Virus record (IMG/VR): IMGVR_UViG_3300032313_001756 | Span: 1-23,775 of that record | Direction: 5' to 3' (one strand) | Length of the DNA stretch: 23,775 nucleotides | Origin: a virus | Part shown: positions 3,863 to 23,775 of the stretch, piece by piece | Layout of the letters: every line of letters starts with the position of its first letter | Position numbering within the stretch: the first letter of the stretch is position 1 | The notes under the pieces: model-generated | Databases searched by the model: none | The model's input: the letters and a program-made list of their open reading frames with translations, nothing else | Told to the model about the DNA's origin: nothing | Program-made: the position numbers and the translations under genes

Positions 3863-3874
3863 TCTGACACTATT

Positions 3875-4894
3875 ATGACATTTGCACAAAATGACGCTAT
3901 ATCAAAACTCATGACTGATGGTTATTCCAGTCTGCAGGCCGCAGGCGTGATCACTACTCCAGCATCACAGGCCATCAGTGCAGTGAGAGGTGTGGTGTTT
4001 ACTGGTGGCGCATCTCCAGTGACTGCAGTCACATCTGCTGTGACCAACAGCGTAAACAGTCAGGTAGGCAGCCTTGTGGCCAATGCCAGCAAGTTTGGCA
4101 CACCTCTCACTGCACAGTGGGCAGAGAGTTTGCCATCAGTGAGCGACCTGACCAGAAATCTGACCAGCATAACCGGCATTGGATCGTTGCCCAGCTTGTC
4201 GTCCTTGCCCAGCCTGGGATCATTGACTTCAGGTATCACGCCCAATCTGGCTTCGGTGCAGTCGGCCATGAACAGCCTGGGCAAGGCCTCACAGTTTGCC
4301 ACATCTGCGGCCAGCAACCTACCTGGTACCGTGGGCAATCTCAGTCTCAGCAGTCTTACCGCTGGTTTACCCAATGTGTCGGCGCTAACTGGCCAACTGC
4401 AAGGCAAAGCCACGGCCTTGGCCGGGCAACTGCAGGGACAGGCATCAGCCCTGCTGGGTCAAGCACAAGGACTAGCCGGTAACTTTACAAACATCAACAT
4501 TAACAGCTTGTTGGGCGGCACTGGTGACAGTCTAGTGGCCAGTGTACAAAAAGCCGCTGGATTTAGTGGCACAGTAAATCGAGCTACAGTAGACGTGGCT
4601 ATGGTCAAGGTGTTTGGCAGCAGCAAAATACCTGTGCCCAGCCTGGGAGCCAATCTGCCAGATTCATCCAGCATAGCCGCGGCCCTGGACATAGGTCAAG
4701 CACAAACAATTCTCAACGACCTAAAGGGACAAGGCAGTAGGTTGCTGGGCGGCGTGCAAAATGCCATTGGCACCAATCTAGGCGGAATTACCGCACAGGT
4801 CACAGCCCTGTCTGGATCGGTCCAGCAACAGGCCACTACCTTGGCCAGATCCGCTACCACAGTGTTCAATCCTGCATCTGGCACTGTGATCTAA
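3875..4894 (+). CDS. Ala/Ser/Gly/Leu-rich baseplate-associated protein, probable C-terminal continuation of the preceding ORF
   Basis: A 339-residue ORF in the same frame as the preceding one. The first residues (FAQNDAISKLMTDGYSSLQA, then AGVITT) fit the continuation of the upstream domain. There is no convincing Shine-Dalgarno before the ATG at 3875, so separate initiation would depend on re-initiation after the TGA. Residues about 95-120 carry a Leu-Pro-Ser repeat (SLPSLSSLPSLGSL). Residues about 173-202 carry 11-residue repeats (GQLQGKATALA, GQLQGQASALL). The whole protein is predicted by eye to be largely helical and low in complexity, without Cys or obvious catalytic residues. Proteins of this composition in phage baseplates can be elongated helical or tape-like connectors. 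No enzymatic function is visible. It ends TAA 14 bases before gp25. Confidence 0.7.
   Translation: MTFAQNDAISKLMTDGYSSLQAAGVITTPASQAISAVRGVVFTGGASPVTAVTSAVTNSVNSQVGSLVANASKFGTPLTAQWAESLPSVSDLTRNLTSITGIGSLPSLSSLPSLGSLTSGITPNLASVQSAMNSLGKASQFATSAASNLPGTVGNLSLSSLTAGLPNVSALTGQLQGKATALAGQLQGQASALLGQAQGLAGNFTNININSLLGGTGDSLVASVQKAAGFSGTVNRATVDVAMVKVFGSSKIPVPSLGANLPDSSSIAAALDIGQAQTILNDLKGQGSRLLGGVQNAIGTNLGGITAQVTALSGSVQQQATTLARSATTVFNPASGTVI
4183..4230 (+). repeat. Leu-Pro-Ser-rich short repeat
   Basis: The DNA repeats a TTGCCCAGC-type unit and encodes S-L-P-S-L-S-S-L-P-S-L-G-S-L. It marks a Pro-containing turn or hinge in an otherwise helical, low-complexity protein. Confidence 0.6.
4391..4480 (+). 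repeat. 33-bp repeat encoding an 11-residue (hendecad) unit
   Basis: Units at 4391-4423 and 4424-4456 encode GQLQGKATALA and GQLQGQASALL. A partial third (GQAQGLAG) runs to 4480. An 11-residue period with alternating small and Leu residues is compatible with a right-handed hendecad coiled coil or a helical stack. Confidence 0.7.
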
Positions 4895-8300: not shown

Positions 8301-8865
8301 GACCACAGCTTATCAAGGTCTGCAAAACTACAAAATGATATCAGACAACATGATTTTGAATACTGTGGACTTCCAACCCTTGTTTGGACAAAAAGCAGAA
8401 CCGGCCTTGCGTGCTACCATCAAGGTCATACGTGCGCCTAACAGCACTGCCAGTGTCAGTACCATAAAGAATTTGGTGGTGGCCAACATGAATGCCTATT
8501 TTAATCTGGAAAACTGGAACTTTGGCGACACTTTCTTTTTCAGTGAACTGGCAGCCTATCTGCATCAGAACATCGGCGGCATAGTTAGCTCGGTGGTCTT
8601 GGTGCCGTTGGCACAAGGTCAAAGTTTTGGTGATCTTTATGAAATACGTTCGGCTCCTAATCAGATTTTTGTGAATGGTGCCACAGTCAACGATGTGGAA
8701 GTGATCACGGCACTGACCACAACCAATCTACGAAGCACATCTCAGGTCGGCGGACTCAACATACTACTAGCAGCACAAACCAGTAGCACGGTCAGCAACG
8801 CTGGAACTGCCAGCAGTGGCGCCAGTTCAGGTGGTACTAGTTCCAGTGGCGGGAGCAGCTACTGA
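5329..8865 (+). CDS. 6: Baseplate wedge protein gp6 (enlarged)
   Basis: An 1178-residue gp6 homologue; T4 gp6 is about 660 residues. N-terminal hallmarks are FIALLDVMAFMGQSL, then DLNTRENYLDTAERR and YIAKRNIEAQGYL (residues about 61-120). A middle hallmark is NGEDYNNFPYTQYTSILKS (about 432-450). The C-terminal hallmarks are EPALRATIKVIRAP (about 1024) and NLENWNFGDTFFFSELAAYL (about 1059-1078). In T4, gp6 dimers form the continuous inner ring of the baseplate and rearrange during sheath contraction. The extra length falls mainly between residues about 460 and 1010, which are beta-rich and Asn/Thr-rich. The last 25 residues are almost all Ser, Gly, Thr and Ala (GASSGGTSSSGGSS), a flexible tail absent from T4 gp6. 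Initiation is at the ATG after a hairpin-bearing leader. The stop overlaps the next start (TGATG), so gp6 and the giant protein are translationally coupled. Confidence 0.95.
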   Translation: MATTSRQTAIFGVEDWKRIYQTYQEADFQSYDFETLRKSFIDYLRVYYPETFNDYIESSEFIALLDVMAFMGQSLAFRTDLNTRENYLDTAERRDSVVRLANLVSYIAKRNIEAQGYLKVFSVSTTENVTDYNGINLANITVNWADPTNLDWQEQFTTILNAAMVNTQQFGNPGNRQTILGVDTQEYTINLVPGFLPVIPYTATIDTVNMPFEVVNATSAGTDFVYEPAPLPDGQFNVLFRNDQQGFLSANTGFFFLFKQGVLQNQDFNLAERITNRAVGINIEGINNNDVWLYQLDDLGNVGTLWEKVQSVYAAAVEQLAPGTRDIYSVSSRTNDQITLNFGDGVFATIPVGTYRAYVRASNGLTYTINPVEMQSVSVPISYVSRTGQIETITFTCGITEPVTNAQARETIQEIKQRAPAQYYTQNRMVNGEDYNNFPYTQYTSILKSTAINRASIGTSRYLDLVDPTGKYSSTDIVASDGALYESNNLYSFQFSWLTSNDISDAVINQINPLALRAGLQQFYYANFPRPDLSVLNYTWNQSTSITNETTGYFENDLGNPVAIGTYASNNARYITEGSLVKFTAPTGYFFDVNNRLVIGQPTNPDEKLTIWASPLAVYLAGTGQGLGNLPSGEGPVVLNNFVPTGAIPTEVIPVFTTDIPITVQQSVVEQISLNQNFGLGYNNLTNTWYVITASNLAIDASFSQTNAQSTTGTNADASWLIQATYDGATYTVVSRSLEYYFGSVLQTRFFFYTSDPIYDSRTGTVIRDYINVLKVNSQPDTANPMGSDNILTIIDQPVLSDGLVDDFQVVVSYARADNLTPVNPDFFDDIVAPSVDANDKLVFFQLTQDFDNLQRYLLIEAGIVNSNYPTLAAIQAVQSQFVIGQVFYAYNPNNDTTIDYSAGTFYVLGVDSLDNPTLTPTQDYLAQIGRQDLYFQYRHNSPLTSRIDPGSTNIIDVYIVTNAYYTAYINWLQDTTGVVTEPTPPTIDALTTAYQGLQNYKMISDNMILNTVDFQPLFGQKAEPALRATIKVIRAPNSTASVSTIKNLVVANMNAYFNLENWNFGDTFFFSELAAYLHQNIGGIVSSVVLVPLAQGQSFGDLYEIRSAPNQIFVNGATVNDVEVITALTTTNLRSTSQVGGLNILLAAQTSSTVSNAGTASSGASSGGTSSSGGSSY
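8851..8855 (+). promoter_or_regulatory. Shine-Dalgarno site of the giant structural gene
   Basis: GGGAG ends nine bases before the ATG at 8865, inside the Ser/Gly-rich end of gp6. With the TGATG overlap it supports initiation at 8865. The following M-A-K-Q-V-R-S-V-D-F-L-P-E-I-F also looks like a natural conserved N-terminus. Confidence 0.6.
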
Positions 8866-9300
8866 TGGCCAAACAAGTTCGCAGTGTTGACTTCCTACCG
8901 GAAATATTCCAAACACCTATCAACGAACAGTTTTTAAGTGCCACTCTGGATCAGTTGATTCAGAATCCTCGTTATGTGCAATCACAAGGATTTTTTGGAC
9001 GCAGGATCGGCCCAGGAGTCAATGCCAATGACAGTTATGTGACTGAACCCACCAAGGTTCGCACAGATTATCAGCTGGAACCTGGAGTAGTTCAGGTTGA
9101 TCCTGAAAACACCAGTCAAGTGATAGACGCTATCACATATCCTGGCATTAACGATGCACTGGAGACACAAGGTGCGTTTGTCAACAATGCTGACAGACTG
9201 TACACCAGTGACTACTATACCTGGGACCCGTTCGTTGATCTAGACAAGTTTGTGAACTATGCACAGTACTATTGGTTGCCAGGCGGACCTTTGTCGGTGG
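8865..9300 (+). other. Conserved N-terminal module of the giant protein
   Basis: Residues 1 to about 145 are the non-repetitive, aromatic-rich N-terminal module. It has FLPEIFQTPINEQFL, a GFFGRR turn, TDYQLEPGVV, YYTWDPFVDLDKF and NYAQYYWLPGGP. Aromatic density and lack of repeats suggest a folded docking domain, presumably the part that attaches to the baseplate. Confidence 0.7.
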
Positions 9301-12300
9301 ATGTGTCGGCCACCACAATACCAGAAACTGACAACTTTGTGGTTGACCGATCCAATGGAGTGTACACATTCAGTGGAGTCACTGGCAACAATCCTGAAAT
9401 AACATTGGTACGTGGCGGAAGCTACACTTTCCAGGTGGCACAAAACACCAAGGAAACTGAAAACTTCCGTGTGACCAACAATGATCTCAGCAGCTGGAAC
9501 ATAGATTACTCACCCAATCCTACCCTGACCTTGGTGCGTGGCAATACCTATGTGTTTAACATTGAGACCACGCCACCCTTGGCATTTTACATCAAGACAG
9601 CGGTTAGTCTGGGCACCACCGACATTTACTCACCAGGGGTCACAGGCAACGGTGCCTCGGCAGGACTGATCACATTCACAGTGCCTCAGAACGCACCAGA
9701 TACCTTGTTCTACTGCAACGACGTTGCAGTTAATCTCAACGGCCAACTCAACATTGTTGATGGCACACCAGGCACAGGTCCTGGTTTTTGGATACAGGCC
9801 AATCCAGGCGTCAACGGACGAGTAATTGCCACTCCTAACATCAGTAGTAGAGATGTACTGGGTGTGGTCAACAACGGCGAAGATCTAGGCACAGTCACAT
9901 TCAATGTGCCTTTGGCCACGGCCCAGAACTTCTACTACAACATGCCCAGCATCGGCACCGTGGACCTGATAACCAGTTTGAATTTTGATCAGATCAACAA
10001 TGTTCCTGTGGCAGTATTTTTGGATCAGTACGGCGGTATTGATGGCATAACCAATTTACAAAACAGGACCTTGGTATTTGAACAAACCAGCACAGGTTGG
10101 GAACAGACTGTGCTGGGCGATCCATTCATGTCCACGGCCATAACCGATCCCGCGGTGCAGTATGGTGTGTGGCAAATACAGTACAATACCATTGATGGCA
10201 CCGAGTACATACAACTGATCAGCATACAAACCGTAGATGTTCTCAACAAGTTTACCATTATATTTGGTGCCGAATATTCCAGCACAGGATGGTATAAAAA
10301 CACCGACGGCGTTTTTGAACAGATACCTTTGTTGACAGCCGGACTCAATACCTTGTTTTATCAGGACGGAACTGATCCTGAAATATTTGGCCGATTCAAC
10401 ATTGTTGACAGCAACATGTCCAGTACCTTGGACATAGAAAGTATCATTGGGGCTACTACGTATACCAGCCCCAACGGAGTCACACTCACCAATGGCATGA
10501 AGGTCATATTCCGTGGCAATGTGTATCCTGCCAGTTATCAAAATCAAGAATACTATGTGGAAGGTGTAGGCACCGGGCCTGGCCTGCCATTCCGTGTGGG
10601 ATTTGTAGATGGCGAGGCCTACTATGGCCCTTATCATGTGCATCAGGGCCAAAAGATGGTGGGAGCCGAACACACAGACACTTTCCATCAATACATCTAC
10701 GACACTGTGACGCAGAGTCTGGCCAATGTAGGAGCAGGAGGTCCAGCTGGCGCACCATTGAGCAATCAAGGACACGCTGTGATTGGCAATGGCATCAAGT
10801 TGTTGCCAGTGTCCAGTTTTGTTACACCAGAAACCTATACTCAAAATCTTGAAGTGCCGTTTGACACTACGCCCTATGATCTGGGCAACTTTGATGGTGA
10901 CCTGAACCAGCCCTTGATACCCGACTACCTGACCATAAACCGAGCCAGCCCTGACCTCAATGCCTGGACCCGCAGCAATCGTTGGTTCCATATAGATGTG
11001 ATCACGGCGTCAGCTGAATATAACAACACCACACCGTTGCTGGACAATCAGTTGCGTGCCCGACGACCTGTGTTGGAGTTCCGTGCTGGTACCAGACTGT
11101 TTGATTCAGGCACACAAGCACTTGCTCCGGTAGACATCATAGATTTCACCCAGACTGATGCGCTCAGCAATGTCAACGGCAGTTTGGGCTACAGTACCGA
11201 CGGTTACAGTCTGATCAACGGCAGTCGCGTGATATTTGCCGCAGACACAGATCCTGAAGTGCGTCGCCGGGTATACAGCGTGCAGTTTGTGATCACCGAC
11301 ACCAACGCTGAAGATTCTACCATAGTGGATGTGCCGGTGATTATATTGACTCCTGTGGCCACGGCCGTGGTTGATAATACTGTGGTCAGTCTCAGCGGCA
11401 ACACTGAACAAGGATTATCATACTACTATGATGGGGTGGCCTGGATTGAAGCACAACAAAAAATCAGTGTAAATCAACCTCCACGCTTTGACATCTACGA
11501 CAGCAATGGTATCAGTTTTAGCGACCAGGTCACATATCCTAGCTCAAATTTCAATGGCAGTCCTTTGTTTAGCTATGCAGTGGGAGATGCTGATCCAGAC
11601 CTTGTGTTGGGTTTTCCATTGACCTATCTCAGCTTGACCAACATTGGCGACATTGTATTTGACAATAATTTTTACAAAGACACCTTCCAATACACCCTGG
11701 ATCGCACTGGTCAAACTCTGTCACTGAGCACAGGCTTTGTGCGTGAATACAGCATGCGCGGCGAGTTCCAAAGCGAAATAGGTTGGCAAACTGCTGCCAC
11801 TCGCAGCCTGGTGCGTCAGCAGTTTCAGTTTAGCTATGATGGTTCTCCACTTTTGTTGGATGTGGCTGTCAACACCAATGATACAGTGCCTGCCATACAG
11901 ATCTATACCAACGGCCAGTATCAATCGGCCAATCTTTATCAATATACCGTGGCTACCAATACCACCACTATCAACTTGCTTGCTACCTACCAGCCCGGAG
12001 ATCTCATTGAGGTATCGGTGCTCAGCGACCAGGTCAGTGTGCAGGGATTCTACGAAGTGCCTATCAACCTGTCTAACAATCCATTGAATGGCGACAGTCT
12101 ACAGTTTACCTTGGGCACCATACGCAACCACTACACATCCATTGCTGAAAATCTCATTGGCCTATCTGGACCACCTATTGGCGCCAATAACACCAGAGAT
12201 CTTGGTAATATTGTGCCGTACGGACTCCAAATACTGCAACAGAGTTCACCACTGACCTTGACCGGGTATTTTATGCGCGATCCAGAGTATGACATATTTG

Positions 12301-15300
12301 CGTCTCTGGCCTACAACAGCAGTGAATACATCAAGTTTAAATCACAACTGCTGAATGCTGTCACCACGTTTAGTATATCCGACTATGGTAACTGGACCGT
12401 GGCCGAACTGTTGGATCGTAGCATGGCCCAGATCACTGCAGGCCGTACTAACATCAATCCTTTTTACTGGAGTGACATGGTGCCCACGGGTACCACGTTT
12501 GTGTCCAACAGCTACACAGTTAATCCTATAACCATCAACACTTTCAACACAGTGCAGACCTATGACTTCACACAGTCTAACTTCCTGGGCTTGTGTGTGT
12601 ATGTAAACAATGTGTTACTGACACGTGGGATAGAATATGTGGTCAGTACCGAAGGGCCTACACTGACCATCCTGATACCCTTGGCCGTGGATGCAGTGGT
12701 CAAGATCAACGAATATACCGACACCGCTGGTAACTTTGTACCCAATACACCCACCAAACTAGGACTGTATCCCAAATACCAACCCAGATTTTTCTATGAC
12801 ACATCATATGTGAATCCTACCTGGGTCATACAAGGTCACGACGGAAGCATCACAGTGGCCTTTGGCACACTGGAAGATCCTGATCCACGTGATCAAGTGT
12901 TGTTGGAGTTTGAGACTCGCATATTCAACAATCTTAAAAACGATGAGAATCCTGTGCCTTTGGTGGCCGACGACGTGATTCCTGGATACTTTCGCACCAC
13001 CGACTACACTGCCGACGAGATCAATCAGATTCTAGGAGAAAGTTTCTTGGCCTGGGTTGGTGGCAACAAACTGGATTACACCAGCCAAACCTACACACCC
13101 GACGATGAATTTACCTATAACTACAGTCAAGCCGGTAACAGACTGGACAGACAACCGCTACTGGGCGCATGGCGGGGTATCTATCGTTATTTCTACGACA
13201 CACTATCGCCAGATACTACACCATGGGAAATGTTGGGTTTTTCAGAACAGCCCGACTGGTGGACTGATCGATATGGTCCTGTTCCTTATACCAGCGACAA
13301 TTTGGTGTTGTGGGGTGACCTTGAAGCAGGTCTGGTAGCAGATCCTGTAGCACCTTATGTGATACCAAAATATCGTCGTCCTGGGTTGACGTCGGTAATT
13401 CCGGTAGACAGCCAAGGCCAGTTATTGCCACCTTTTTACAGTGTAATGGGTGCTTACAATCCTCAAGGATTTGTCAAGAGCTGGAAGGTCGGCGACGGAG
13501 GCCCTGTGGAAGCAAGTTGGTGGACAAGTTCCAGCTATCCATTTGCGGTCATGCGTCTGTTGATCCTCACACGTCCCGCTGAATTTTTCAGCCTGTTTGC
13601 TGACCGAGATCTTTATCGATATTCAACTGATTTAGATCAGTATCTGTACAATGGTCGTTACAGAATACAACCACAAAACATCCAAGTGTACGGCAACGGT
13701 ATCAGCAAGGCCAGCTACATTAACTGGATCATAGACTACAACCAACAATTGGGCATCAACAGCACCGATGCCTTGACCACGGACCTGGCCAATCTGGACG
13801 TGCGTTTGTGTTACAGAATGGCCGCATTTGTTGCTCAAAGCAATCTGGCCATGTACCTGGAAAAAAGCAGCCCCAACAGCGAAAACAGCAACCTGCTGAT
13901 TCCTCCAGAAAGTTACAACTTGTTGTTGTATAAAAATACACCATTCAACCGTGTCAATTACAGTGCAGTTATTGTAGAAGTGGTTGAAGGTGGCTACAGC
14001 GTGTATGGATACAATGCCACAGATCCGTATTTTCCTACCTTGGCCAGCCGTGTGACTGGTGTGCAACAGACCTTGAGTGGTGGCAATATTTCAGTCACAG
14101 TACCGACTCAATACACCGACAAGCTGGTACAGATACCCTATGGCTATATTTTTTCAAATCTAGCCGGCGTGGTAGATTTCTTACTCAGTTATGGCGAATA
14201 TCTGGCCAGTCAAGGACTGTCATTCACTGCTCAAGAAAATGGCTACACACTGAATTGGTTACAGATGGCCCAGGAGTTTTTGTATTTTGCCAATCAAGGT
14301 TGGGCCACAGGCACAATTATCAATCTCAATCCGTCGGCTACCCAGGCCATTGCATTCCGTGCCGGTGCCGTGCTGGATTCCATCATAAGCTACACGCCAG
14401 AGAATCTTATTTTGGATCAAAATCGAAAAGCCTTTGATGCCAGAAATTTAGTCATACGCCGTGAAGGCAACACGTTTACACTGAATCCCGAACCTGGCGG
14501 TAGTCAAACCGTGAGCTATTTGCAGTTGCGATTCACATCCTATGAAAACATGGTAGTCTTGAACAACAGAACCATATTCAACGACCTTATCTATAATAAT
14601 TACACAGCTGAAAGACAGAGTAGATTGCGATTGAACGCGGCCATATCCACTGAGTGGAACGGAACTCTCAACGCCCAAGGATTCATACTGAATCAGGACA
14701 ATGTGGAGGCCTGGAGGCCCAATCTCAAATATACACGTGGACAGATAGTTTCCTACAAAAACAACTTCTGGCAAGCTGCTACCATAGTGCCGGCCAAGGC
14801 CACGTTTGAATACTCTGACTGGCTCAAGAGCAACTATGATCGTATTGAACAAGGTTTGTTGCAAAACCTGGCTACCAAGGCTGATCAGTTGGCCAACAGT
14901 TATGACACACAAACTGCCAATCTCAATCTAGACAATGATTTGTTGGCGTTTGGTCTGATTGGATTCAGACCTCGTCAGTACATGGTGGATTTGAATTTAG
15001 ATGATACCAGCCAGGTCAATCTGTATCAGCAGTTTATCAAGACCAAAGGTACCACACAGGCCACGGATCTGTTCACACAGGTCAACTTTGATCCATTGAC
15101 AGCACAGTATCGCATATACGAAAATTGGGGCATCTTGGCCGGCACCTATGGAGCCAACGCCAATCGCAGTTGGTTTGAAATAGCTCTTGATGAAGAACTA
15201 TTAACCGGCAATCCCAGCACTGTACAAATCATACAGCCCGGCGAATCCAGCCAGGCCAATCAGACCGTACAACTGAACAATCTCTGGGCAGAAAGTTACA

Positions 15301-18300
15301 AGATACCCAACACCAATATACTTCCTACCACGTATGCTACCAACAGCGACACAGCCTTGCCTTCAGCAGGATATGTCAACATTAACAGCGTGGATATCAC
15401 AGTGTTCAGTCTCAACGATCCCTCCAGCATTAGTGCCAATCTTGAAATAGTGGGCAATGGCACCAAAATCTGGGTGGCCAAAGACAACAGCTATGACTGG
15501 AACATATATCAATGTGAGCAAATACCCGGACGATTGACACAACTGACCGATAATCTCAATGGTACCAGCCGTGCGCAGTTTAGCAACACAGTCAACTTGA
15601 CCGTGGGCGATTTGATCATAGTGCGATATTTCAGTGAAGCGGTTGACGGTGTGTATCGGGTGCTCAGCACTCCCAGCATAGATTCTGCTGTGATACAGTA
15701 TGAATTCAGCAATTCCAATCAAACGTCAATCACTGGCACGGGTCTGGTATTTTATCTACAGAGCATGCGTGTGGCTCAGGCCAGCGACATAGTAAATCTA
15801 CCATCCGACAATCAACTGATACCCGGAGCCATAGCCTGGGTAGACAATGATGGTAATGGACATTGGCAAGTGCTGGAAAAAACCAATCCTTTTGCGGCCA
15901 TTGACACAGTTACTGCCACAGTGCCAGAACCCAATTCATTGTTTGGTACCAGCCTGGCACAGAGCTCGGATCACTTTGCACTGTTGGTAGGAGCACCTGC
16001 AACCGCCAATGGCGCTGGTGCTGTGTATACATACCGTCTGGGCAATGTGAATGATTATGTGGAAAATACCGAGTTGTTACTCAATGCTACGGGCACAGCC
16101 GGATTTGGCAACAGTGTAGATTTTGGAGACAGGACCTGGGCCGTTGCCGGTGCCAGTGCCAGCAATTCAGGAGCAGGCTATGTTGCCATGCTGTATCTGG
16201 TGCCAGGCTCCAACGACTATGCAAAAACACAGTTACTGGTAAATCCCACAGGAGATTTTGGACCAGTGGGCTTTGGATCCACAGTCAAAATCACTGCCAA
16301 CGAACGCTGGATGTATGTGAGTGCACCTGTTGACAATGAAGTTTATGCCTATGCTCGAATAGATGTTCCACGCCAGTCTGTGACATACACAGCGCCTGGC
16401 AATGTGGCCACATTTACATACAACAATGACATTGAGATAGACAGTACGCAACCCGATCAGCTGATAGTCACTGTGGACAACTTGTTGGCAGTGTATGGCA
16501 CGGACTACGTGATCAATGCCACGCTTGTGCAGTTCTTGTTCACACCCACCGCAGGCTCCAAAATAGTCATATCCCGACGTACCTCAGTACAACTGGATTC
16601 CAATACCTATTATGGTGTAAATCAAAACAGCACCTCGGGCACAGGATCTGGTGCTGCATTTACCATCAACAACACCAGAGGTGTTTATAGTGTGTCGCTA
16701 ACGGCACCGGGCACAAGCTATGTGGTGGGCAACACCTTGACCATCAGCTACACCCAGATAGCCCCTACTGGAAGTGCGGCCAACAACATCACCATCACTG
16801 TGACTGAAGTCACTTCGGGTGGTATCACAGGATTTACCTACACCGGCACAGGAGTTACCAACACCGCTGTATTTGCTCTTGACACCTATCTTTACACAGC
16901 CACTGATCTGGATTCGTTTACTGTGGAAGTCAACGGGGTACTACAACGGCCACACATAGATTATGATTTCCAAGATCCGGGTGACAGCTCCATACCCGAG
17001 ATCACTTTCCTAACAGTTCCGGCCGCAGGTGCCATAATCACTGTGAGTTCAGCTGCTGTGGGTGCTTATTGGAAATATGTCAACACCTTGACTGCCGTTG
17101 GTTTCCAGGCCAATGCTAAGTTGGGCACAAGTCTAAGCACAGATGTGTTGGGACGCCAGATTCTGATTGGTGCACCCCGAGACAGCGCCGTGGATGCCGA
17201 AGGCAATACCATACTGTCAGCAGGTGCTGTATATGCATTTGATCGCGGAGTGATCAAGTATTTGATCACAGATGTTGAGCAACTGACCTATGCCATACCT
17301 GTCACTGCACAGGATCCCATCACGGTAATCTTGAACAATCAATATCTAACCAACACAGCACAATACATCAATGGAGATTTTACAGTCAGCGGCAACACCA
17401 TAGTGTTGTCACCATCTATTTCGCTGACCGTAGGTGACTCATTGGTGATTGAAACCAATGAATTCCAACAAGTGCAAAAAATTACAGCCAACACCGTGAT
17501 TGACCAGTCCTTGTTTGGCCAAAGCGTGGCCATATGTCCTAACAGTTGCAGTGTGTATACCGGAGCACCCTTAGACAGCTTTGCCTCAGGAGTTCCACAG
17601 GCCGGCCTGGTACAACGACAGGTCAATCAAAGCAGAATCTATGGCATCACAACCAGTACCGTGGCCAATCCTGCTCTTACCGCTGGCGACACTATTCGCA
17701 TTAACGATATAGAAGTCGCTGTGCCAAATAGTCCTAACAATACCGTAGCTGGTTTAGTAGCCGCAATAAATGCTGGACCTTACCTTAGCACTAAACAGTA
17801 TTATATAGGAGATCGTGTATCATACAACAACACAAGTTACGTAGCTATTGCTAACAGTGTTAATGTTGTGCCAACAAATCTTGCATTTTGGGCCCCATCG
17901 TTTATCATACCCAATGTGCGAGCTGTTTCCAGCAGCAACGTGATTTTACAAGGTAACGGGGCTACCAAGATATTTGATATTGGCAACATATATTCCTCAG
18001 CCACTGCCTATACCACAGTAGTCTACATAGACGATGTGCTACAGACCCAGGGAGTAAACTATACCTACAACAACACCACACAACAGGTGATTTTTGTGTC
18101 TGCTCCAGCCACAGGCAGTGAAATACTGGTGATAGGCGGCCGTATCACAATCAGCGTAATCAACACCGCAGCAGCTGTTGAGTTCAATCGATTGACTGTG
18201 TTGCCTGGCCTAACCGCAGGCACTGCATTTGATGATCTGGGATTTGTTACCTATGCCTATACTCAGACCATAGTCAGTCCCCGTGCTACAGATTTTGCCC

Positions 18301-21300
18301 AGTTTGGATCCTCAATCAGTGTCAACACTGGCGCCAGCAATCTAGTCATAGGATCGCCCAATGGTGATGCCTATGAACCCACCACGTTTGATGCCGATCA
18401 AACCTACTTTGATGATCGCAGCACCACATTCTTTTCATCGGTAGATAATTCTGGGGTAGTATACACCTTTGACTACCTACCCAGTGCCAGTGATTCAGTA
18501 ACTAATCCAGGCCAGTTTGTGTTTGGTCAACAGATTTATACCACCCAGTTGCAGACCGGAGATCAGTTTGGTGCCGCGGTGGATTATCGCAACAGTCGAC
18601 TGTTGGTAGGTGCTCCTGGCAGTGATCTAGGCGACAGCTCGGTCAACTACGGCAGCGTGGCAGTGCTGGACAATGCAGACGATGCCGCTGTGTGGCAAGT
18701 GGTCTATGCGCAACAGGCCGCAGTGGATGTGAATCTTATCAACTCAGTGTACAGCTATGACCGAGTGTTGAGCAGCACACAAACATACTTTGATTTTATT
18801 GATCCCTTGCAAGGCAAGATCTTGGGCGTGGCACGCAGAAACATAGACTACATTGGAGCAGTTGATCCAGCTAGTTACAACACAGGAACCATACACAACA
18901 TTGGCACCAGTTGGGGTGCTGCCCACGTAGGCGAAATCTGGTGGGATACCAACTCGGTAAGATTCATAGATGCCAATCAAGACAATCTGATCTATGCCAG
19001 CCGTAGATGGGGTCAGGTATTTCCAGGCAGCACCATAGATTGTTATCAGTGGACTGCCAATAGTGTGCCTCCGGTGAACTATACCGGCACAGGCACTCCG
19101 TTTAGTACAGTGAGCTATACTGTGGCTTCAACGGTGGATGATCAAGGTTTCTTGACCACTACGTATTTTTATTGGGTGCGTGATATCAACACTGTGGCCA
19201 CACAGGCAGGCAAAACTTTGAGTGTGACAGCAGTGGCCAGCTACATTCTTAACCCGGCCAGTAGCGGTCTGCCTTACATAGCAGCCTTGACTACCAATGC
19301 TGTGGCCTTGTACAATGCCAAAGATTTGTTGTCGGCTAACGATACTATTTTGCATGTGGAATATGATCGCCAGGCTCAAGGTGGCCAGGCCGACATACAT
19401 CAACAGTATGAATTCATAGCACAAGGCCGTGCCGACTCGTTTTTAAATGCCAATCTGTACAGAAAAATGCTGGACAGTTTCTCAGGTGCCACTACCACAG
19501 GTGCTGCTGTGCCAGATCCTCTGCTGAGTCCAGGCATGCAACACGGCGTGCAGTTCCGTCCTCGACAGAGCATGTTTGTCGATCGCTTCCAGGCCTTGCA
19601 AAACTATTTGGGTCGTGCCAACACAGTGCTGGCCCAGTATCCTATATCAGAGACACGCACGTTCTCTTTGTTGAACAGTGCCGAGCCCACACCAGCAAGC
19701 AATTCTGGTGCCTGGGACTTTGAAGTACCTAACCTTGAAGTGTTGGCATTCCAAAATCTGGATGTGGTTCCTTTGGGTTGGAAGTATCTGGTCACCAATG
19801 ACTCCAGCCAAAATGGTCGCTGGACCATATATCAAGTGGCTTCTGACACCCAACCGGGACAACGTGTGCTTGATCTGGTACAAGTACAGACCTATGACAC
19901 CACACTGTACTGGAACTACATTGACTGGTATCTTCCTGGATATAACAGTTCAATACAACCAGTGGCCACTGTGGCCAACGTGGCAGAGTTGCAACAGCTT
20001 GATCTGAACACAGCACCGGTAGGTTCCAGTGTCAAAGTCACTGCCAATGGCCAAGGCAAATTTGAAATATATCTGCGTACTCTAACCGGCTGGGATCGTG
20101 TGGGACTAGAAGATGGCACCATAGCATTTGACCAAGTTCTTTGGAACTACCAACTGGGTGGGTTTGGATTTGATGCCCAGGTGTTTGATGGCAACTATTT
20201 TGATCAAGAGCCCACTACAGAAACACGCAACATCATACGGGCTATCAATGAAGAATTGTTTGTGGACGACTTATTGATTGAACGCAATCAAAGTTTAATC
20301 TTGATGTTCCAATACATTTACAGCGAATTTACCAGTCCTAATTGGTTATTTAAGTCCAGCTATATTACGGTGGAACATGTCATACGCGGTCTTTTGCCTT
20401 ATGAACTTTATCAGCCGGACAATCAGACTTTTGTGCTGGATTATCTCAACGAAGTCAAGCCCTATCATGTGCAGAATCTGTCCTTCAATTTGGTATATGA
20501 AGGATTAGACACTTATCCTGGTGGTATCACCGACTATGATGTCCCTGCTCGTTGGGATACTGCATTGACCACACCACAGTTTGTAAGTCCGGTGCTCACA
20601 CCCTACACACTCAGTGATTCTGTAAATCAATCCGTGGTCAGTGACACCGGTGCCGATGCTCAGATATGGTTGCAAAGACCCTGGAGTGATTGGTTCAACA
20701 ACTATGGTTTGTCAGTGGAATCCGTCACGGTCATTGACACTACAACCACCTACTCGGCTGTGCCAACAATAACCATTGGCACAGAATGGACTGCCAATAC
20801 CACTGTTGCTTTGAGTGAACAGATCTTTTACGGCGCTAATCTTTACACTGTGACTGCGGCTGGCACCACCGGCACTGTGGCCCCAAGATTTACCGTGGGC
20901 AGTTTGGCCAATGGCACGGCCATGTTGACCTATTCAGGTGCTCGAGCACAGGGTGTAGCTGTGTTGCGAGCCAATCAAACCATTGCCACAGTAACTGTCA
21001 CGGTGCCAGGTACAGGATACCTGACCACACCCCCAATTGCCATCACTGACGTCAACGACAGCAGCGCCACCTATGGATATCAGCTGGTACCGGTCATGGG
21101 CAACAATCTGGTCAGAAGCATCAAGACCACCATCAAGTATGACCGATATCAATACAGCAGCGACATAGTGGAATGGTCTTATCTCACAGCCAACTATGCC
21201 GCAGGAACACAGGTCAGATATCAGGATCAAGTATGGTCAGCCAACACTGCTATAACCAACACCGCGGTAACTACCACAGCCACTTCACAACCGGCGTCGT

Positions 21301-23775
21301 TTACTATCACAGTAGCATCGGCTGTTGGACTAACACAAGGCATGTTGGTAACAGGCCCTCAACTTTTGCCTGGCACAGCCATTGGAACCATCACAGGCAC
21401 AACCCTACAACTGACTCAGGCCGCCCTGGGTGCCATGAACAACACCCAAGTGAATTTTTACAGACCGTTTGATTTGGATCAATGGACCCGAGTGGATGCC
21501 GACACCTTGAGTGGTGTAGATCGCACCATGGGATTCTATGTGCCCACAGTAAACATGCCCGGGCTAAGTTTGCCACTGTTGATCGACGGCATAGATTATC
21601 CGGGCGTGCAGGTGGATGCGCCAGATTATAATCAAAACACCGGATTTGATGTGGGCAACTATGACATCAATCCCTTTGACAACATCAGCTTTGATGCTGA
21701 AGGTCGTCCAACCTATGATCCAGGCATATTGGATGCCAAGTACAGCAGTGCCTATTTAGATCCATATTTGGGAACCCGAGCCACTGACATCAATGTGGCG
21801 GGCGGTGCCTACGTAGACACCTATAGCAGCCATGCTCCTGAAGAACTTGTTCCTGGCAGCGAGTTTGACACTCTGGATCTACGTGTGTACACACGTCCCG
21901 GATCAGACTGGCTAGAACGTGGACATGGCTTCCCTAGCGGCACTGTAAGATATGAGCTGGATGCCGCCAGTCTAGGGTTGAGTTTCTCAGGTCTTGAGCC
22001 TTATACAGCCTTGGTATTTGTCAGCAATCTCACACAGCAACTGGATCTACATCTGGGCACTGACTACACTGTGAACTATGTGAATCAGACCGTGACCATG
22101 ATCCTCAACGGTAACGTTCAAGACGGCGACGTGATTGTGATCACAGCCTATGAGCCTGGTGGCGGTAATCAGTTGTACAAGAACATCTATAATGGTGCTG
22201 ACATAGGCAACACTGTAACAGTGCCAGTGGCCTACTATCAGATTGATGGGGTCACACCAGAAATACAGGAGTTTGTGATCTTTGTAAATGGCGTGTTGAC
22301 CACCAACTATACCTATGCGGCCTCGGAAGATCAAGCTACCACAGTGACCTTTGGCGTCACCTACACAGCCACTGACAGCATAGCTTTGTATGTGCTGGCA
22401 CCCACAGTGATCACAGTCAATCAAACTCCGATCAACTACAGCTGGAGCCTGCCACAAACACAGATCATCGTCAGTGATGGCACTGGCCTGACCTTTGATC
22501 TTGACAACAGCTTGAGTGGATGCAATCCTGATTGTCTAATAGTGACTGTGAATGGTGTACGTGCTCGAACAGCGGCCGGCATACGTCACACCGCTGACGG
22601 CAGTACCGGGTATGACCTGCCAGATCGTTTAGGAGTCAGTCAAGCTCTTATCGCTGACAATCAGGTACATGTGTACGTGGAAGATCAGCCACAGATCCTG
22701 GGAGTAGATTTCACAGTGGAGTCAGCCTCGGGTTACAGCGAGTTGCGCGAAGTGTTGTTTGCCGAGGAACCTGAGATTGGTGCTGAAATTCTAATCTATG
22801 TGGACATCAACGTGCAGTGCTTTGTCAACGGAACGCAACTGACCTTTGTGACCGGCAACGGACTAGAACCTGGATTTGGTGATGTCATAGCCGTGACCAC
22901 CTGGAATGACACACGCCAACAAGGCATATTGAGCCAGTGTTTTGTGGGACCTGTGACCACAGGCGTCACAGTCAATGAACCTTACGACAGCGTGGATTTT
23001 GATGTGGGCGACATCACTGGCGATCCTGGCAGTTATGACTACACTGAAGGAGACACTGTGATTGCCAACAATCTGGATCTAGGTGTAGTAATAACCAATC
23101 CAGATCGTCTGTGGGTCAGTTTGAATGGCAATCGGTTGTTCAACAATCAAGGGTTCACTGTCAGCGGCACCCAAGTGATTCTTACTTCCGGCATCATGAA
23201 TGCGTCTGATGTGGTCATGATCACGCAGTTTACCAACTATGTGGTTCCAGAAGCCATGGCCTTCCGCATATTCCAAGACATGCGTGGAGTACAGGCCACC
23301 TACAGGATTACCACTGACACCACCACTGAAACCACTGCCTTGGTGGCCGTGGACAGTGATGTTATTAGTGTGATCAATGCCGGTGCCCTGCCCGAACCAG
23401 ATTTTGACAACAATGTGTGGGGGGTTATCACAGTCAATGCCGAACGCATCATGTACAGAACTCGCAACACTACAACCAATACTGTCAGTGGCCTGTTACG
23501 TGGCACCGCTGGTACTGCTGTCTCTGCACATGCGGCCAACAGCACGGTGTACAATCTAGGTCGCGGAAATCTGTTGCCCCAAGAGTATCAAGATTATGTG
23601 GTCAGCAACACCTTTGAAGGCGATGATACCACCACAGAATTCACTGCAACACTGATAGATCTTGCACAGGATGACAGTACTCTGCGTGTAGATACCTTAG
23701 AAGTATATGTGGGTGGCACCAAGCAAAGTGAGCATTTTATTGGTGATGGAGTGACCAAGACTTTTGCCTTGAACG
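8865..23775 (+). CDS. Giant virion structural protein in the gene-7 position (5' complete, runs off the window)
   Basis: One frame stays open from the ATG at 8865 to the window edge: 4970 complete codons, no stop. I checked the frame at many points. The N-terminus has the pattern VDFLPEIF.T..N..FLSATLDQL, then GFFGRR, DYQLEP and WDPFVDLDKFVNYAQYYWLP. I recall this pattern from very large structural proteins of aquatic T4-like phages. Core blocks follow: DYLTINRASPDLNAW and RARRPVLEFRAGTRLF (about residues 686-750), PWEMLGF (1453), GLIGFRPRQYM (2030), RPRQSMF (about 3566), EVKPYH (3863) and SSHAPEELVPG (4321). Between them lie accessory beta domains. There is no transmembrane segment or enzyme motif, and Cys is rare. 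The gene directly follows gp6, where T4 carries wedge gene 7, but I see no direct similarity to gp7. A structural role is very likely; whether it is a wedge component, a fibre base or both is inference. Confidence 0.85.
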   Translation, partial: MAKQVRSVDFLPEIFQTPINEQFLSATLDQLIQNPRYVQSQGFFGRRIGPGVNANDSYVTEPTKVRTDYQLEPGVVQVDPENTSQVIDAITYPGINDALETQGAFVNNADRLYTSDYYTWDPFVDLDKFVNYAQYYWLPGGPLSVDVSATTIPETDNFVVDRSNGVYTFSGVTGNNPEITLVRGGSYTFQVAQNTKETENFRVTNNDLSSWNIDYSPNPTLTLVRGNTYVFNIETTPPLAFYIKTAVSLGTTDIYSPGVTGNGASAGLITFTVPQNAPDTLFYCNDVAVNLNGQLNIVDGTPGTGPGFWIQANPGVNGRVIATPNISSRDVLGVVNNGEDLGTVTFNVPLATAQNFYYNMPSIGTVDLITSLNFDQINNVPVAVFLDQYGGIDGITNLQNRTLVFEQTSTGWEQTVLGDPFMSTAITDPAVQYGVWQIQYNTIDGTEYIQLISIQTVDVLNKFTIIFGAEYSSTGWYKNTDGVFEQIPLLTAGLNTLFYQDGTDPEIFGRFNIVDSNMSSTLDIESIIGATTYTSPNGVTLTNGMKVIFRGNVYPASYQNQEYYVEGVGTGPGLPFRVGFVDGEAYYGPYHVHQGQKMVGAEHTDTFHQYIYDTVTQSLANVGAGGPAGAPLSNQGHAVIGNGIKLLPVSSFVTPETYTQNLEVPFDTTPYDLGNFDGDLNQPLIPDYLTINRASPDLNAWTRSNRWFHIDVITASAEYNNTTPLLDNQLRARRPVLEFRAGTRLFDSGTQALAPVDIIDFTQTDALSNVNGSLGYSTDGYSLINGSRVIFAADTDPEVRRRVYSVQFVITDTNAEDSTIVDVPVIILTPVATAVVDNTVVSLSGNTEQGLSYYYDGVAWIEAQQKISVNQPPRFDIYDSNGISFSDQVTYPSSNFNGSPLFSYAVGDADPDLVLGFPLTYLSLTNIGDIVFDNNFYKDTFQYTLDRTGQTLSLSTGFVREYSMRGEFQSEIGWQTAATRSLVRQQFQFSYDGSPLLLDVAVNTNDTVPAIQIYTNGQYQSANLYQYTVATNTTTINLLATYQPGDLIEVSVLSDQVSVQGFYEVPINLSNNPLNGDSLQFTLGTIRNHYTSIAENLIGLSGPPIGANNTRDLGNIVPYGLQILQQSSPLTLTGYFMRDPEYDIFASLAYNSSEYIKFKSQLLNAVTTFSISDYGNWTVAELLDRSMAQITAGRTNINPFYWSDMVPTGTTFVSNSYTVNPITINTFNTVQTYDFTQSNFLGLCVYVNNVLLTRGIEYVVSTEGPTLTILIPLAVDAVVKINEYTDTAGNFVPNTPTKLGLYPKYQPRFFYDTSYVNPTWVIQGHDGSITVAFGTLEDPDPRDQVLLEFETRIFNNLKNDENPVPLVADDVIPGYFRTTDYTADEINQILGESFLAWVGGNKLDYTSQTYTPDDEFTYNYSQAGNRLDRQPLLGAWRGIYRYFYDTLSPDTTPWEMLGFSEQPDWWTDRYGPVPYTSDNLVLWGDLEAGLVADPVAPYVIPKYRRPGLTSVIPVDSQGQLLPPFYSVMGAYNPQGFVKSWKVGDGGPVEASWWTSSSYPFAVMRLLILTRPAEFFSLFADRDLYRYSTDLDQYLYNGRYRIQPQNIQVYGNGISKASYINWIIDYNQQLGINSTDALTTDLANLDVRLCYRMAAFVAQSNLAMYLEKSSPNSENSNLLIPPESYNLLLYKNTPFNRVNYSAVIVEVVEGGYSVYGYNATDPYFPTLASRVTGVQQTLSGGNISVTVPTQYTDKLVQIPYGYIFSNLAGVVDFLLSYGEYLASQGLSFTAQENGYTLNWLQMAQEFLYFANQGWATGTIINLNPSATQAIAFRAGAVLDSIISYTPENLILDQNRKAFDARNLVIRREGNTFTLNPEPGGSQTVSYLQLRFTSYENMVVLNNRTIFNDLIYNNYTAERQSRLRLNAAISTEWNGTLNAQGFILNQDNVEAWRPNLKYTRGQIVSYKNNFWQAATIVPAKATFEYSDWLKSNYDRIEQGLLQNLATKADQLANSYDTQTANLNLDNDLLAFGLIGFRPRQYMVDLNLDDTSQVNLYQQFIKTKGTTQATDLFTQVNFDPLTAQYRIYENWGILAGTYGANANRSWFEIALDEELLTGNPSTVQIIQPGESSQANQTVQLNNLWAESYKIPNTNILPTTYATNSDTALPSAGYVNINSVDITVFSLNDPSSISANLEIVGNGTKIWVAKDNSYDWNIYQCEQIPGRLTQLTDNLNGTSRAQFSNTVNLTVGDLIIVRYFSEAVDGVYRVLSTPSIDSAVIQYEFSNSNQTSITGTGLVFYLQSMRVAQASDIVNLPSDNQLIPGAIAWVDNDGNGHWQVLEKTNPFAAIDTVTATVPEPNSLFGTSLAQSSDHFALLVGAPATANGAGAVYTYRLGNVNDYVENTELLLNATGTAGFGNSVDFGDRTWAVAGASASNSGAGYVAMLYLVPGSNDYAKTQLLVNPTGDFGPVGFGSTVKITANERWMYVSAPVDNEVYAYARIDVPRQSVTYTAPGNVATFTYNNDIEIDSTQPDQLIVTVDNLLAVYGTDYVINATLVQFLFTPTAGSKIVISRRTSVQLDSNTYYGVNQNSTSGTGSGAAFTINNTRGVYSVSLTAPGTSYVVGNTLTISYTQIAPTGSAANNITITVTEVTSGGITGFTYTGTGVTNTAVFALDTYLYTATDLDSFTVEVNGVLQRPHIDYDFQDPGDSSIPEITFLTVPAAGAIITVSSAAVGAYWKYVNTLTAVGFQANAKLGTSLSTDVLGRQILIGAPRDSAVDAEGNTILSAGAVYAFDRGVIKYLITDVEQLTYAIPVTAQDPITVILNNQYLTNTAQYINGDFTVSGNTIVLSPSISLTVGDSLVIETNEFQQVQKITANTVIDQSLFGQSVAICPNSCSVYTGAPLDSFASGVPQAGLVQRQVNQSRIYGITTSTVANPALTAGDTIRINDIEVAVPNSPNNTVAGLVAAINAGPYLSTKQYYIGDRVSYNNTSYVAIANSVNVVPTNLAFWAPSFIIPNVRAVSSSNVILQGNGATKIFDIGNIYSSATAYTTVVYIDDVLQTQGVNYTYNNTTQQVIFVSAPATGSEILVIGGRITISVINTAAAVEFNRLTVLPGLTAGTAFDDLGFVTYAYTQTIVSPRATDFAQFGSSISVNTGASNLVIGSPNGDAYEPTTFDADQTYFDDRSTTFFSSVDNSGVVYTFDYLPSASDSVTNPGQFVFGQQIYTTQLQTGDQFGAAVDYRNSRLLVGAPGSDLGDSSVNYGSVAVLDNADDAAVWQVVYAQQAAVDVNLINSVYSYDRVLSSTQTYFDFIDPLQGKILGVARRNIDYIGAVDPASYNTGTIHNIGTSWGAAHVGEIWWDTNSVRFIDANQDNLIYASRRWGQVFPGSTIDCYQWTANSVPPVNYTGTGTPFSTVSYTVASTVDDQGFLTTTYFYWVRDINTVATQAGKTLSVTAVASYILNPASSGLPYIAALTTNAVALYNAKDLLSANDTILHVEYDRQAQGGQADIHQQYEFIAQGRADSFLNANLYRKMLDSFSGATTTGAAVPDPLLSPGMQHGVQFRPRQSMFVDRFQALQNYLGRANTVLAQYPISETRTFSLLNSAEPTPASNSGAWDFEVPNLEVLAFQNLDVVPLGWKYLVTNDSSQNGRWTIYQVASDTQPGQRVLDLVQVQTYDTTLYWNYIDWYLPGYNSSIQPVATVANVAELQQLDLNTAPVGSSVKVTANGQGKFEIYLRTLTGWDRVGLEDGTIAFDQVLWNYQLGGFGFDAQVFDGNYFDQEPTTETRNIIRAINEELFVDDLLIERNQSLILMFQYIYSEFTSPNWLFKSSYITVEHVIRGLLPYELYQPDNQTFVLDYLNEVKPYHVQNLSFNLVYEGLDTYPGGITDYDVPARWDTALTTPQFVSPVLTPYTLSDSVNQSVVSDTGADAQIWLQRPWSDWFNNYGLSVESVTVIDTTTTYSAVPTITIGTEWTANTTVALSEQIFYGANLYTVTAAGTTGTVAPRFTVGSLANGTAMLTYSGARAQGVAVLRANQTIATVTVTVPGTGYLTTPPIAITDVNDSSATYGYQLVPVMGNNLVRSIKTTIKYDRYQYSSDIVEWSYLTANYAAGTQVRYQDQVWSANTAITNTAVTTTATSQPASFTITVASAVGLTQGMLVTGPQLLPGTAIGTITGTTLQLTQAALGAMNNTQVNFYRPFDLDQWTRVDADTLSGVDRTMGFYVPTVNMPGLSLPLLIDGIDYPGVQVDAPDYNQNTGFDVGNYDINPFDNISFDAEGRPTYDPGILDAKYSSAYLDPYLGTRATDINVAGGAYVDTYSSHAPEELVPGSEFDTLDLRVYTRPGSDWLERGHGFPSGTVRYELDAASLGLSFSGLEPYTALVFVSNLTQQLDLHLGTDYTVNYVNQTVTMILNGNVQDGDVIVITAYEPGGGNQLYKNIYNGADIGNTVTVPVAYYQIDGVTPEIQEFVIFVNGVLTTNYTYAASEDQATTVTFGVTYTATDSIALYVLAPTVITVNQTPINYSWSLPQTQIIVSDGTGLTFDLDNSLSGCNPDCLIVTVNGVRARTAAGIRHTADGSTGYDLPDRLGVSQALIADNQVHVYVEDQPQILGVDFTVESASGYSELREVLFAEEPEIGAEILIYVDINVQCFVNGTQLTFVTGNGLEPGFGDVIAVTTWNDTRQQGILSQCFVGPVTTGVTVNEPYDSVDFDVGDITGDPGSYDYTEGDTVIANNLDLGVVITNPDRLWVSLNGNRLFNNQGFTVSGTQVILTSGIMNASDVVMITQFTNYVVPEAMAFRIFQDMRGVQATYRITTDTTTETTALVAVDSDVISVINAGALPEPDFDNNVWGVITVNAERIMYRTRNTTTNTVSGLLRGTAGTAVSAHAANSTVYNLGRGNLLPQEYQDYVVSNTFEGDDTTTEFTATLIDLAQDDSTLRVDTLEVYVGGTKQSEHFIGDGVTKTFALN
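9510..9765 (+). other. Cupredoxin-like domain with degenerate metal site
   Basis: Residues about 217-300 read NPTLTLVRGNTYVFNI, then FYIKT, GVTGNGASAGLITFTVPQ, APDTLFYCND and LNGQLNIVD. This matches the cupredoxin-like domain of many phage tail proteins, which usually ends with a YYC.NH..M.G pattern. Here the Cys remains but the following His and Met are replaced (CNDVAVNLNG), so copper binding is unlikely. A weaker partial copy (NPEITLVRGGSYTFQVAQ) lies just upstream at about 9387-9440. Confidence 0.55.
10620..10690 (+). other. His-rich motif in the giant protein
   Basis: The segment YYGPYHVHQGQKMVGAEH, closed by a further His five residues on, places His at residues about 591, 593, 603 and 608 of the giant protein. 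The Gly-Pro-Tyr-His-x-His...Met-x-Gly-Ala-x-His spacing is a motif I associate with structural sites in tail proteins of T4-like phages. It may bind a metal or form a tight turn. The residues are seen; the metal is inference. Confidence 0.5.
14718..14835 (+). other. Carbohydrate-binding-like Y-G-V-Y-W motif, copy 1
   Basis: The segment reads EAWRPNLKYTRGQIVSYKNN followed by FWQA and, later, SDW. It follows the pattern W.......Y..GxxV.Y....W.A......W of small CBM5/12-like modules. Here it lies within a conserved core block of the protein, so it may simply be structural. Confidence 0.4.
16383..17053 (+). other. Insertion between propeller blades 3 and 4
   Basis: Three small beta domains sit here. 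A VNG-type sandwich (about 16383-16582) reads QLIVTVDNLLAVYGTDYVIN and ends KIVISRR. A second domain (about 16671-16858) has a VSLTAPGTSYVVGNTLTISY pattern like the 'pGtGY' modules of phage tails. A second VNG-type sandwich (about 16869-17053) has FTVEVNGVLQRPHIDYDF. All are in frame and lie in a loop of the propeller, as lectin or Ig-like insertions do in other propellers. Confidence 0.55.
17640..17900 (+). other. AT-richer patch: hook-IN-like and CBM5/12-like segments
   Basis: This part of the blade 5/6 insertion differs in composition: I count 69 G+C in 180 bases at 17701-17880 (38%), against 53% at 16081-16140 and 58% at 18541-18600. Codons shift to GTA, GCT, TTA and ATA. The protein first reads ITAGDT-type sequence (PALTAGDTIRINDIEVAVP, then AGLVAAIN), like the hook-IN motif of flagellar proteins and related phage modules. 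It then reads YYIGDRVSYNNTSYVA with a Trp near residue 3010, like a CBM5/12 module. The composition change is directly seen; acquisition from another genome is inference. Confidence 0.6.
21165..21260 (+). other. Carbohydrate-binding-like Y-G-V-Y-W motif, copy 3
   Basis: The segment WSYLTANYAAGTQVRYQDQV followed by WSA matches the Y..G..V.Y...W.A spacing also seen near 14718 and 17790. It follows a 'VPGTGY' module (about 20985-21050), and the two together resemble a repeated surface-exposed unit. Confidence 0.4.
21645..21950 (+). other. SSHAPEELVPG module
   Basis: Residues about 4261-4362 include DAEGRPTYDPGILDAKYSS, a LGTRATDINVAGGAYVDTYS stretch, then SSHAPEELVPGSEFDTLDLR and VYTRPGSDW. This Asp-rich, strongly patterned block is one I associate with large tail proteins of several phages. 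Its function is unknown; high conservation suggests a structural joint between the core and the distal beta repeats. Confidence 0.5.
21985..23240 (+). repeat. Array of VNG-type beta-sandwich domains
   Basis: Several diverged domains follow a shared pattern, a hydrophobic strand with V.VNGV, then g.DYt......i.F...p..GD.I.i. Examples are VFVSNLTQQLDL...GTDYTVNY (about 21990-22155), FVIFVNGVLTTNYTYA (about 22200-22400), LIVTVNGVRA (about 22485-22790), QCFVNGTQL (about 22815-22920) and LWVSLNGNRLFNNQGFTV (about 23085-23240). Related copies occur at about 12540-12723, inside the propeller insertions, and a further one begins near 23690. They resemble beads of a long rigid rod. Repeats are visible in protein only; the DNA copies are too diverged to align by eye. 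Confidence 0.6.
23241..23595 (+). other. 'ERI-YR...RGT-GTA' phage tail module
   Basis: Residues about 4793-4910 read AFRIFQDMRGVQATYRI, then VINAGALPEPDFDNN, ITVNAERIMYRTRN, SGLLRGTAGTAVSAH and VYNLGRGNLLP. The pattern I.I..ERI.Y.......L.RGT.GTA...H..g..VY is a recurrent module in large tail and fibre proteins of T4-like phages. The end of the window follows shortly after, within another VNG-type domain. Confidence 0.5.

Follow-up and report, generated by a model that had tools for sequence, protein, structure and literature searches.

The window analysed here is a virus record of 23,775 bases (IMG/VR record IMGVR_UViG_3300032313_001756) from the lineage of uncultured jumbo myophages related to RaK2 and PA5oct. 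It contains a giant open reading frame (ORF), whose start at window position 8865 is the origin of all residue numbers given below; full-length relatives of this ORF comprise 4450-5060 amino acids (aa) in most cases. Seven FG...GAP motifs lie within residues 2359-3270, at the place where an initial annotation of this DNA had reported seven FG-GAP repeats, and the region is strongly predicted from structural models to form a closed seven-bladed ring of the integrin class. Based on blade limits taken from the secondary structure assignment (Dictionary of Secondary Structure in Proteins, DSSP) of an AlphaFold2 model, the propeller spans approximately 15864-18710, slightly more than the 15939-18674 proposed earlier. 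The giant ORF and the parts of the propeller are as follows.

8865..23774, plus strand: ORF of the giant structural protein, still open where the window ends, with at least 4970 aa; matches phrog_10938 (virion structural protein) with E=8e-298
15864..15881, plus strand: N-terminal D-like strand (WQVLEK) before blade 1; DSSP of the model
15939..16076, plus strand: blade 1 (FG-GAP repeat 1); PF14312 E=3e-4 alone, model
16101..16238, plus strand: blade 2 (divergent FG-GAP repeat 2); motif in relatives, model
16269..17090, plus strand: blade 3, split into strands A-C (16269-16364) and strand D (17064-17090); blade profile match, model
16365..17063, plus strand: insertion in the blade 3 C-D hairpin, residues 2501-2733, 233 aa; profiles, model, relatives
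17118..17483, plus strand: blade 4, split between strands C and D (D 17439-17483); PF14312 E=0.0013 alone, model
17265..17438, plus strand: insertion in the blade 4 C-D hairpin, residues 2801-2858, 58 aa; model, near-constant length in relatives
17511..18272, plus strand: blade 5, split between strands C and D (D 18252-18272), with a CxxxC motif in the A-B loop; PF14312 E=0.0022 alone, model
17628..18251, plus strand: insertion in the blade 5 C-D hairpin, residues 2922-3129, 208 aa; model, relatives
17778..17903, plus strand: CBM5/12-like module inside the blade 5 insertion; PF02839 E=0.0014, below the cut-off, low model confidence
17898..18164, plus strand: inserted beta domain, copy 3, resembling PF09343 and PF03906; profiles
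18300..18536, plus strand: blade 6 with a 32-aa B-C loop (18357-18452); profiles, model
18564..18710, plus strand: blade 7 (FG-GAP repeat 7); PF14312 E=5.8e-6, over the cut-off, model

FG-GAP repeats and the predicted ring

The FG residues of the repeats are located at positions 2360, 2414, 2470, 2753 (LG in this case), 2884, 3147, and 3235. A strict form of the motif has six matches across the whole protein, every one of them in this zone, whereas 2000 shuffles averaged 0.09 matches and never gave more than 2. The family assignment had to be shifted, because PF01839 (FG-GAP, curated cut-off 22.1 bits), which the initial annotation had named, has no match in the window or in the giant protein. 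The related family PF14312 (FG-GAP_2) matches the whole region with 54.4 bits (E=1.4e-14; curated cut-off 23 bits) and also 26 of 27 relatives at E<=0.1. When single segments were scored against PF14312, repeats 1, 4, 5, and 7 were recognized (E of 3e-4, 0.0013, 0.0022, and 6e-6, respectively; only repeat 7 exceeds the curated cut-off on its own), and repeats 2, 3, and 6 obtained no score in this copy. This is formally fewer than the five scoring segments that had been set as a threshold for the repeats. Blade profiles derived from the relatives, however, match each other for blades 1, 3, 4, 5, 6, and 7, mostly with 76-97% probability (the weak pairs are blades 3 and 7 with 15% and blades 5 and 7 with 19%), against 0-2% in control comparisons of blades with inserts. 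A joint profile, which was trained on the same blades, recovers blade 1 as well as blades 3-7 of the window with E values of 4e-12 or lower. Blade 2 is a divergent repeat (GYGNSVDFG..WAVAGAS); 64-65 of 65 relatives nevertheless retain its motif, and it has a blade fold in the model.

Integrin-type propellers are closed rings of seven blades with four strands each and FG-GAP/Cage motifs, and bacterial counterparts of these classic animal adhesion folds exist (PMC3192720). The zone resembles the integrin alpha propeller in its seven four-stranded blades, with the FG placed within strand 1 or ahead of it and the GAP within strand 2, and in its best fold matches. By sequence reading, the first Gly of the FG-GAP/Cage motif is present in all seven blades, the Pro in six (blade 2 has GAS), and the second Gly in six (it is absent from blade 3 in this copy). 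In contrast to integrins, the repeats belong to PF14312 rather than PF01839, the inserts are located in the C-D hairpins of blades 3-5 within a phage tail protein, and none of the blade A-B loops, which hold calcium in some blades of integrins, contains a DxDxDG-like calcium motif; the sole DNDGNG of the protein (residue 2327) precedes blade 1. In integrins, the I domain lies between blades 2 and 3. A near-invariant CxxxC occupies residues 2891-2895 (window 17535-17549) in the A-B loop of blade 5.

Residues 2310-3330 of the window protein, modelled with AlphaFold2 from 27 sequences, gave seven blades of four strands with a predicted local distance difference test score (pLDDT) of 81.6 and a predicted template modelling score (pTM) of 0.80. 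In Foldseek comparisons integrins were frequent among the best matches of this model, with template modelling (TM) scores of 0.45 at most. Because inserts probably disturb the superposition and thus account for these modest values, the insert-poor relative L025 (760 aa) was folded in a second run, which again produced seven four-stranded blades (pLDDT 88.2, pTM 0.90). Integrin alpha chains represent 49 of the 50 best PDB matches listed for this model, with E down to 5.8e-11; TM scores by target reach no more than 0.60, and the model aligns along whole integrin propellers (constructs of about 440 aa, TM 0.57-0.60). Among the viral matches were proteins with FG-GAP repeats from giant viruses and from uncultured tailed phages. 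A PDB sequence search with the propeller profile retrieved chance matches only. In the models, the ring may be closed by either the WQVLEK strand or the C-terminal D strand. The seven motifs could instead represent separate beta domains or an open array, as might be suspected from the divergence of blade 2 and from the mere four segments that score singly with Pfam, but the regular blades in both models and the alignments along whole integrin propellers make such an arrangement very improbable. As far as predictions can tell, the closed seven-bladed propeller claimed in the initial annotation is thus borne out.

Inserted domains and variation among relatives

The same annotation had counted four insertions totalling about 590 residues that carry beta domains themselves. 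The blades are indeed interrupted, by three C-D insertions that sum up to 499 aa (531 aa together with the 32-aa loop of blade 6), and according to DSSP of the model the inserts are mostly beta domains, whose content varies between relatives. All three insertions occupy equivalent sites, the C-D hairpins of the neighbouring blades 3, 4, and 5. In the standard propeller topology the C-D hairpins are all on one face, and thus the inserts of these blades should cluster. The blade 3 insertion contains two related beta domains (16377-16604 and 16839-17057) that flank a third domain, and this middle domain is missing in several relatives. Three inserted beta domains are mutually homologous (95-96% in profile comparisons) and resemble PF03906, the N-terminal domain of the T7 tail fibre (E=9e-5 in a relative), and PF09343. 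The giant protein contains additional weak copies of this beta domain at 12528-12710 and 22557-22799 (residues 1222-1282 and 4565-4645).

Variation was analysed in 65 distinct complete relatives, which had been retrieved with the propeller region itself as query. All 65 retain the seven blades, the lengths of strands and most loops are constant, and variation is nearly confined to the C-D insertions of blades 3 (138-300 aa) and 5 (98-217 aa). The blade 6 B-C loop differs from the insertions in having exactly 32 residues in 65 of 65 relatives and is a possible contact surface. Rare deviations are an additional domain between blades 6 and 7 (6D-7A) in L015 and a B-C loop of 64 residues in blade 4 of L044. 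The CBM5/12-like module in the blade 5 insertion is shared by the window and seven other members of the set; it is absent from L003, which is 89% identical to the window, and from most other relatives, and in L131 and L044 it is found at another site. Identity to the relatives amounts to 51-69% for propeller strands and inserts, 43-57% for loops, and 67% for the core. The propeller zone is therefore faster-evolving than the core, but it is by no means hypervariable, and this speaks against a role as a primary determinant of host range.

These data bear on the main rival to a docking or display function of the ring, namely that the inserted beta domains, the CBM5/12-like module among them, make direct contact with host-surface glycans during adsorption and bind them. 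The gain or loss of the CBM5/12-like module between relatives of such high identity would fit this explanation, as would the phage phi11 receptor-binding protein, which employs five-bladed propellers, and the speculation in a passage of PMC4901313 that a seven-bladed propeller at the phiKZ baseplate periphery binds a receptor. However, strands and inserts are not hypervariable (about 50-69% identity compared to 67% in the core), and the CBM scores remain under the curated cut-off of 26.2 bits (PF02839; 19.0 bits in the window and 25.2 bits in the best relative) in a module that most relatives lack. Moreover, RaK2-like phages already possess dedicated receptor-binding tail fibres (PMC10253068). 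Direct adhesion thus appears rather unlikely to us. The adhesion platform of the initial annotation is unsupported in this wording, since it had been inferred only, integrin-type calcium motifs are missing, and hypervariability is not seen in the zone; the weak CBM5/12-like module is the only hint of binding in the zone.

Distribution of the propeller zone

In IMG/VR, 434 loci encode a relative of the propeller region, with the full propeller confirmed in part of them. Within the environmental clade the zone is present in all 65 distinct complete relatives, and 35 non-identical relatives of sufficient length, obtained by a search with the core, agree on its presence. On contigs of 317-347 kb, matches to FG-GAP_2 are confined to the giant ORF. 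None of the six distant homologues examined has an FG-GAP propeller zone: it is missing from the homologues of PBECO4 and GAP32 (approximately 3330-3340 aa), reduced and free of FG-GAP repeats in Paride and SCTP-2, and replaced by unrelated sequence in Atu_ph07 and L047. A propeller in the latter two had been hinted at by global alignment and was rejected, as FG-GAP repeats are absent, unrelated sequence occupies the site, and L047 yields marginal blade scores only. Atu_ph07 encodes a separate "hemagglutinin protein" of 393 aa (BFVD A0A2L0UZX4) that resembles the propeller model (E=8e-9), despite the lack of a propeller in its giant protein. A search of annotated phage records with the propeller zone found none at E<=1e-5 and short weak matches only at E<=1.

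In the core tree the propeller carriers form one group, although the branch that sets this group apart has partly poor support. The simplest reading is a single gain in this lineage at a site tolerant of large insertions. The zone is a clade-specific insertion and not a freely swapped cassette as initially suggested, because it is retained throughout the clade, its absence or replacement is limited to the six distant homologues, and within the clade only the content of its inserts changes. The absence of the propeller from the PBECO4 and GAP32 proteins indicates that it is dispensable for the basic role of the protein. One could then regard it as a structural filler that enlarges the baseplate and has no binding role, with the inserts being drifting decorations. 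The homologues that share the core and lack the propeller, the other material found at this site in Atu_ph07 and L047, and the many additional weak copies that the protein carries of the inserted domain are in line with such an expansion element. On the other hand, blade number, loop lengths, and the 32-aa loop of blade 6 are strictly conserved in 65 relatives, and this conservation together with the complete retention in the clade suggests a constrained role, which renders the filler explanation improbable.

Baseplate context and possible function

Upstream of the giant ORF the window contains the following baseplate genes.

1722..3233, plus strand: gp5-like hub gene (OB domain); phrog_13211 E=3e-39, PF04717
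4909..5283, plus strand: gp25-like baseplate wedge gene; phrog_975/261/43, PF04965 E=7e-6
5329..8865, plus strand: gp6-like baseplate wedge gene, adjoining the giant ORF on its 5' side; phrog_10646 E=1e-280

In tblastn searches the giant ORF matched 59 phage records of the RaK2, GAP32, PBECO4, PA5oct, Atu_ph07, and SCTP-2 types, and the order of the hub, gp25, gp6, and giant genes is retained in RaK2-like phages where inspected. Both the homology of the core (E=8e-298) and the location after the gp6 wedge gene identify the giant protein as a member of the RaK2-like giant virion structural proteins of phrog_10938. Like CBB_236, GAP32_230, and RaK2 ORF070, it has the homologous core and flanks and the same gene order after gp6; it differs from the shorter PBECO4 and GAP32 members by its propeller zone. 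The homologue CBB_236 was confirmed by mass spectrometry in virions of the RaK2-like jumbo phage CBB with 21 peptides (PMC5259590). Similarly, 17 virion peptides were reported for phAPEC6 gp245 (381.9 kDa), which is encoded directly after the wedge protein gp244 (PMC7247149) and which, judging from size and gene order, would be the counterpart of the giant protein. Based on these detections, the giant protein is a virion protein, as the initial annotation had assumed in calling it structural, and it probably belongs to the baseplate.

Propellers are known from phage tails, and two systems are particularly instructive. A seven-bladed propeller at the baseplate of a jumbo phage, gp131C of phiKZ (PDB 4GBF), is cited in PMC4901313. 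In the description given there it is likewise part of a jumbo myophage and located at the baseplate periphery, but it is the C-terminal domain of a separate protein from an unrelated jumbo lineage; the likeness is one of description, and the list of the 50 best fold matches did not include gp131C. The nozzle of SU10 contains a tail propeller with inserted immunoglobulin (Ig)-like domains and a fibre dock (PMC9509320). This T7-type nozzle also is a propeller interrupted by inserted beta domains, seven-bladed in SU10, where a loop docks the short tail fibre, but it belongs to a short-tailed phage and lines the tail channel, and its insertions in SU10 are in blade 1 and between blades 2 and 3. 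We know of no FG-GAP motifs in the propellers of SU10- or T7-type nozzles.

The explanation that we favour, with somewhat better than even confidence, is that the integrin-class propeller of this baseplate-associated giant protein, a closed ring of seven blades, serves as a rigid hub for docking or display. The ring, held between two conserved structural blocks and present in perhaps six copies per baseplate as wedge symmetry would imply, may expose on one face the small beta domains that the C-D hairpins carry in blades 3, 4, and 5, and these could serve as docking sites for further tail components, for instance fibres, or make contact with surface glycans. It would then work much like the interrupted propeller of the SU10 nozzle with its Ig-like domains and fibre dock. 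We infer copy number, baseplate placement, the docking or display role, and glycan contact alike. Given that the zone is not hypervariable, that calcium loops are absent, and that SU10 and phiKZ gp131C provide precedents, a hub for the display of modules for docking or contact seems likeliest. Several points weigh against this explanation. The PBECO4 and GAP32 homologues do without the propeller, and the matches of the inserted domains to PF03906, PF09343, and PF02839 are all under the curated cut-offs. Ring closure is a prediction based on pTM, strand order, and Foldseek, and only gene order places the giant protein in the baseplate. Furthermore, homology to T4 gp7 was not detected when the two conserved blocks were compared with the single T4 sequence (hhalign probability <1%), so that T4 gp7 and the giant ORF agree in gene position only; a PDB sequence search with the same two blocks gave no meaningful match.

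A broader version of the hub explanation, which we regard as possible but doubtful, is that the integrin-class propeller acts as a permanent hub for adhesion or docking in the baseplates of a large environmental clade of jumbo phages. Modules resembling glycan-binding domains or fibre anchors would be gained and lost on one face of the constant ring, and host contact might thereby be tuned while the scaffold stays unchanged. The feature combines two known things, the phage tail propeller and the FG-GAP family. A full-text search of a collection of papers gave no description of a phage baseplate protein with an integrin-class propeller; proteins of uncultured tailed phages that are labelled "FG-GAP repeat" are present in public structure sets. 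Since the propeller is common among IMG/VR loci and its ring is constant while the inserts change, the idea of a constant scaffold with exchangeable contact modules becomes testable in a family of very large phage structural proteins.

Some minor observations concern the genes upstream. The gp5-like hub protein (1722-3233) has an OB domain and similarity to DUF2345 and no match to a lysozyme domain, whereas the annotation of GAP32 gp5 includes such a domain. The interval between the hub and gp25 genes (3230-4894) contains two ORFs of 210 and 339 aa with no convincing family match, the longer of which is rich in Ala, Ser, Leu, and Gln and contains near-repeats. At 1588-1680, a 21-base tandem repeat (4.4 copies, 90% matches) encodes 7-residue repeats of the TGxFTGR type close to the C-terminus of the upstream structural protein.

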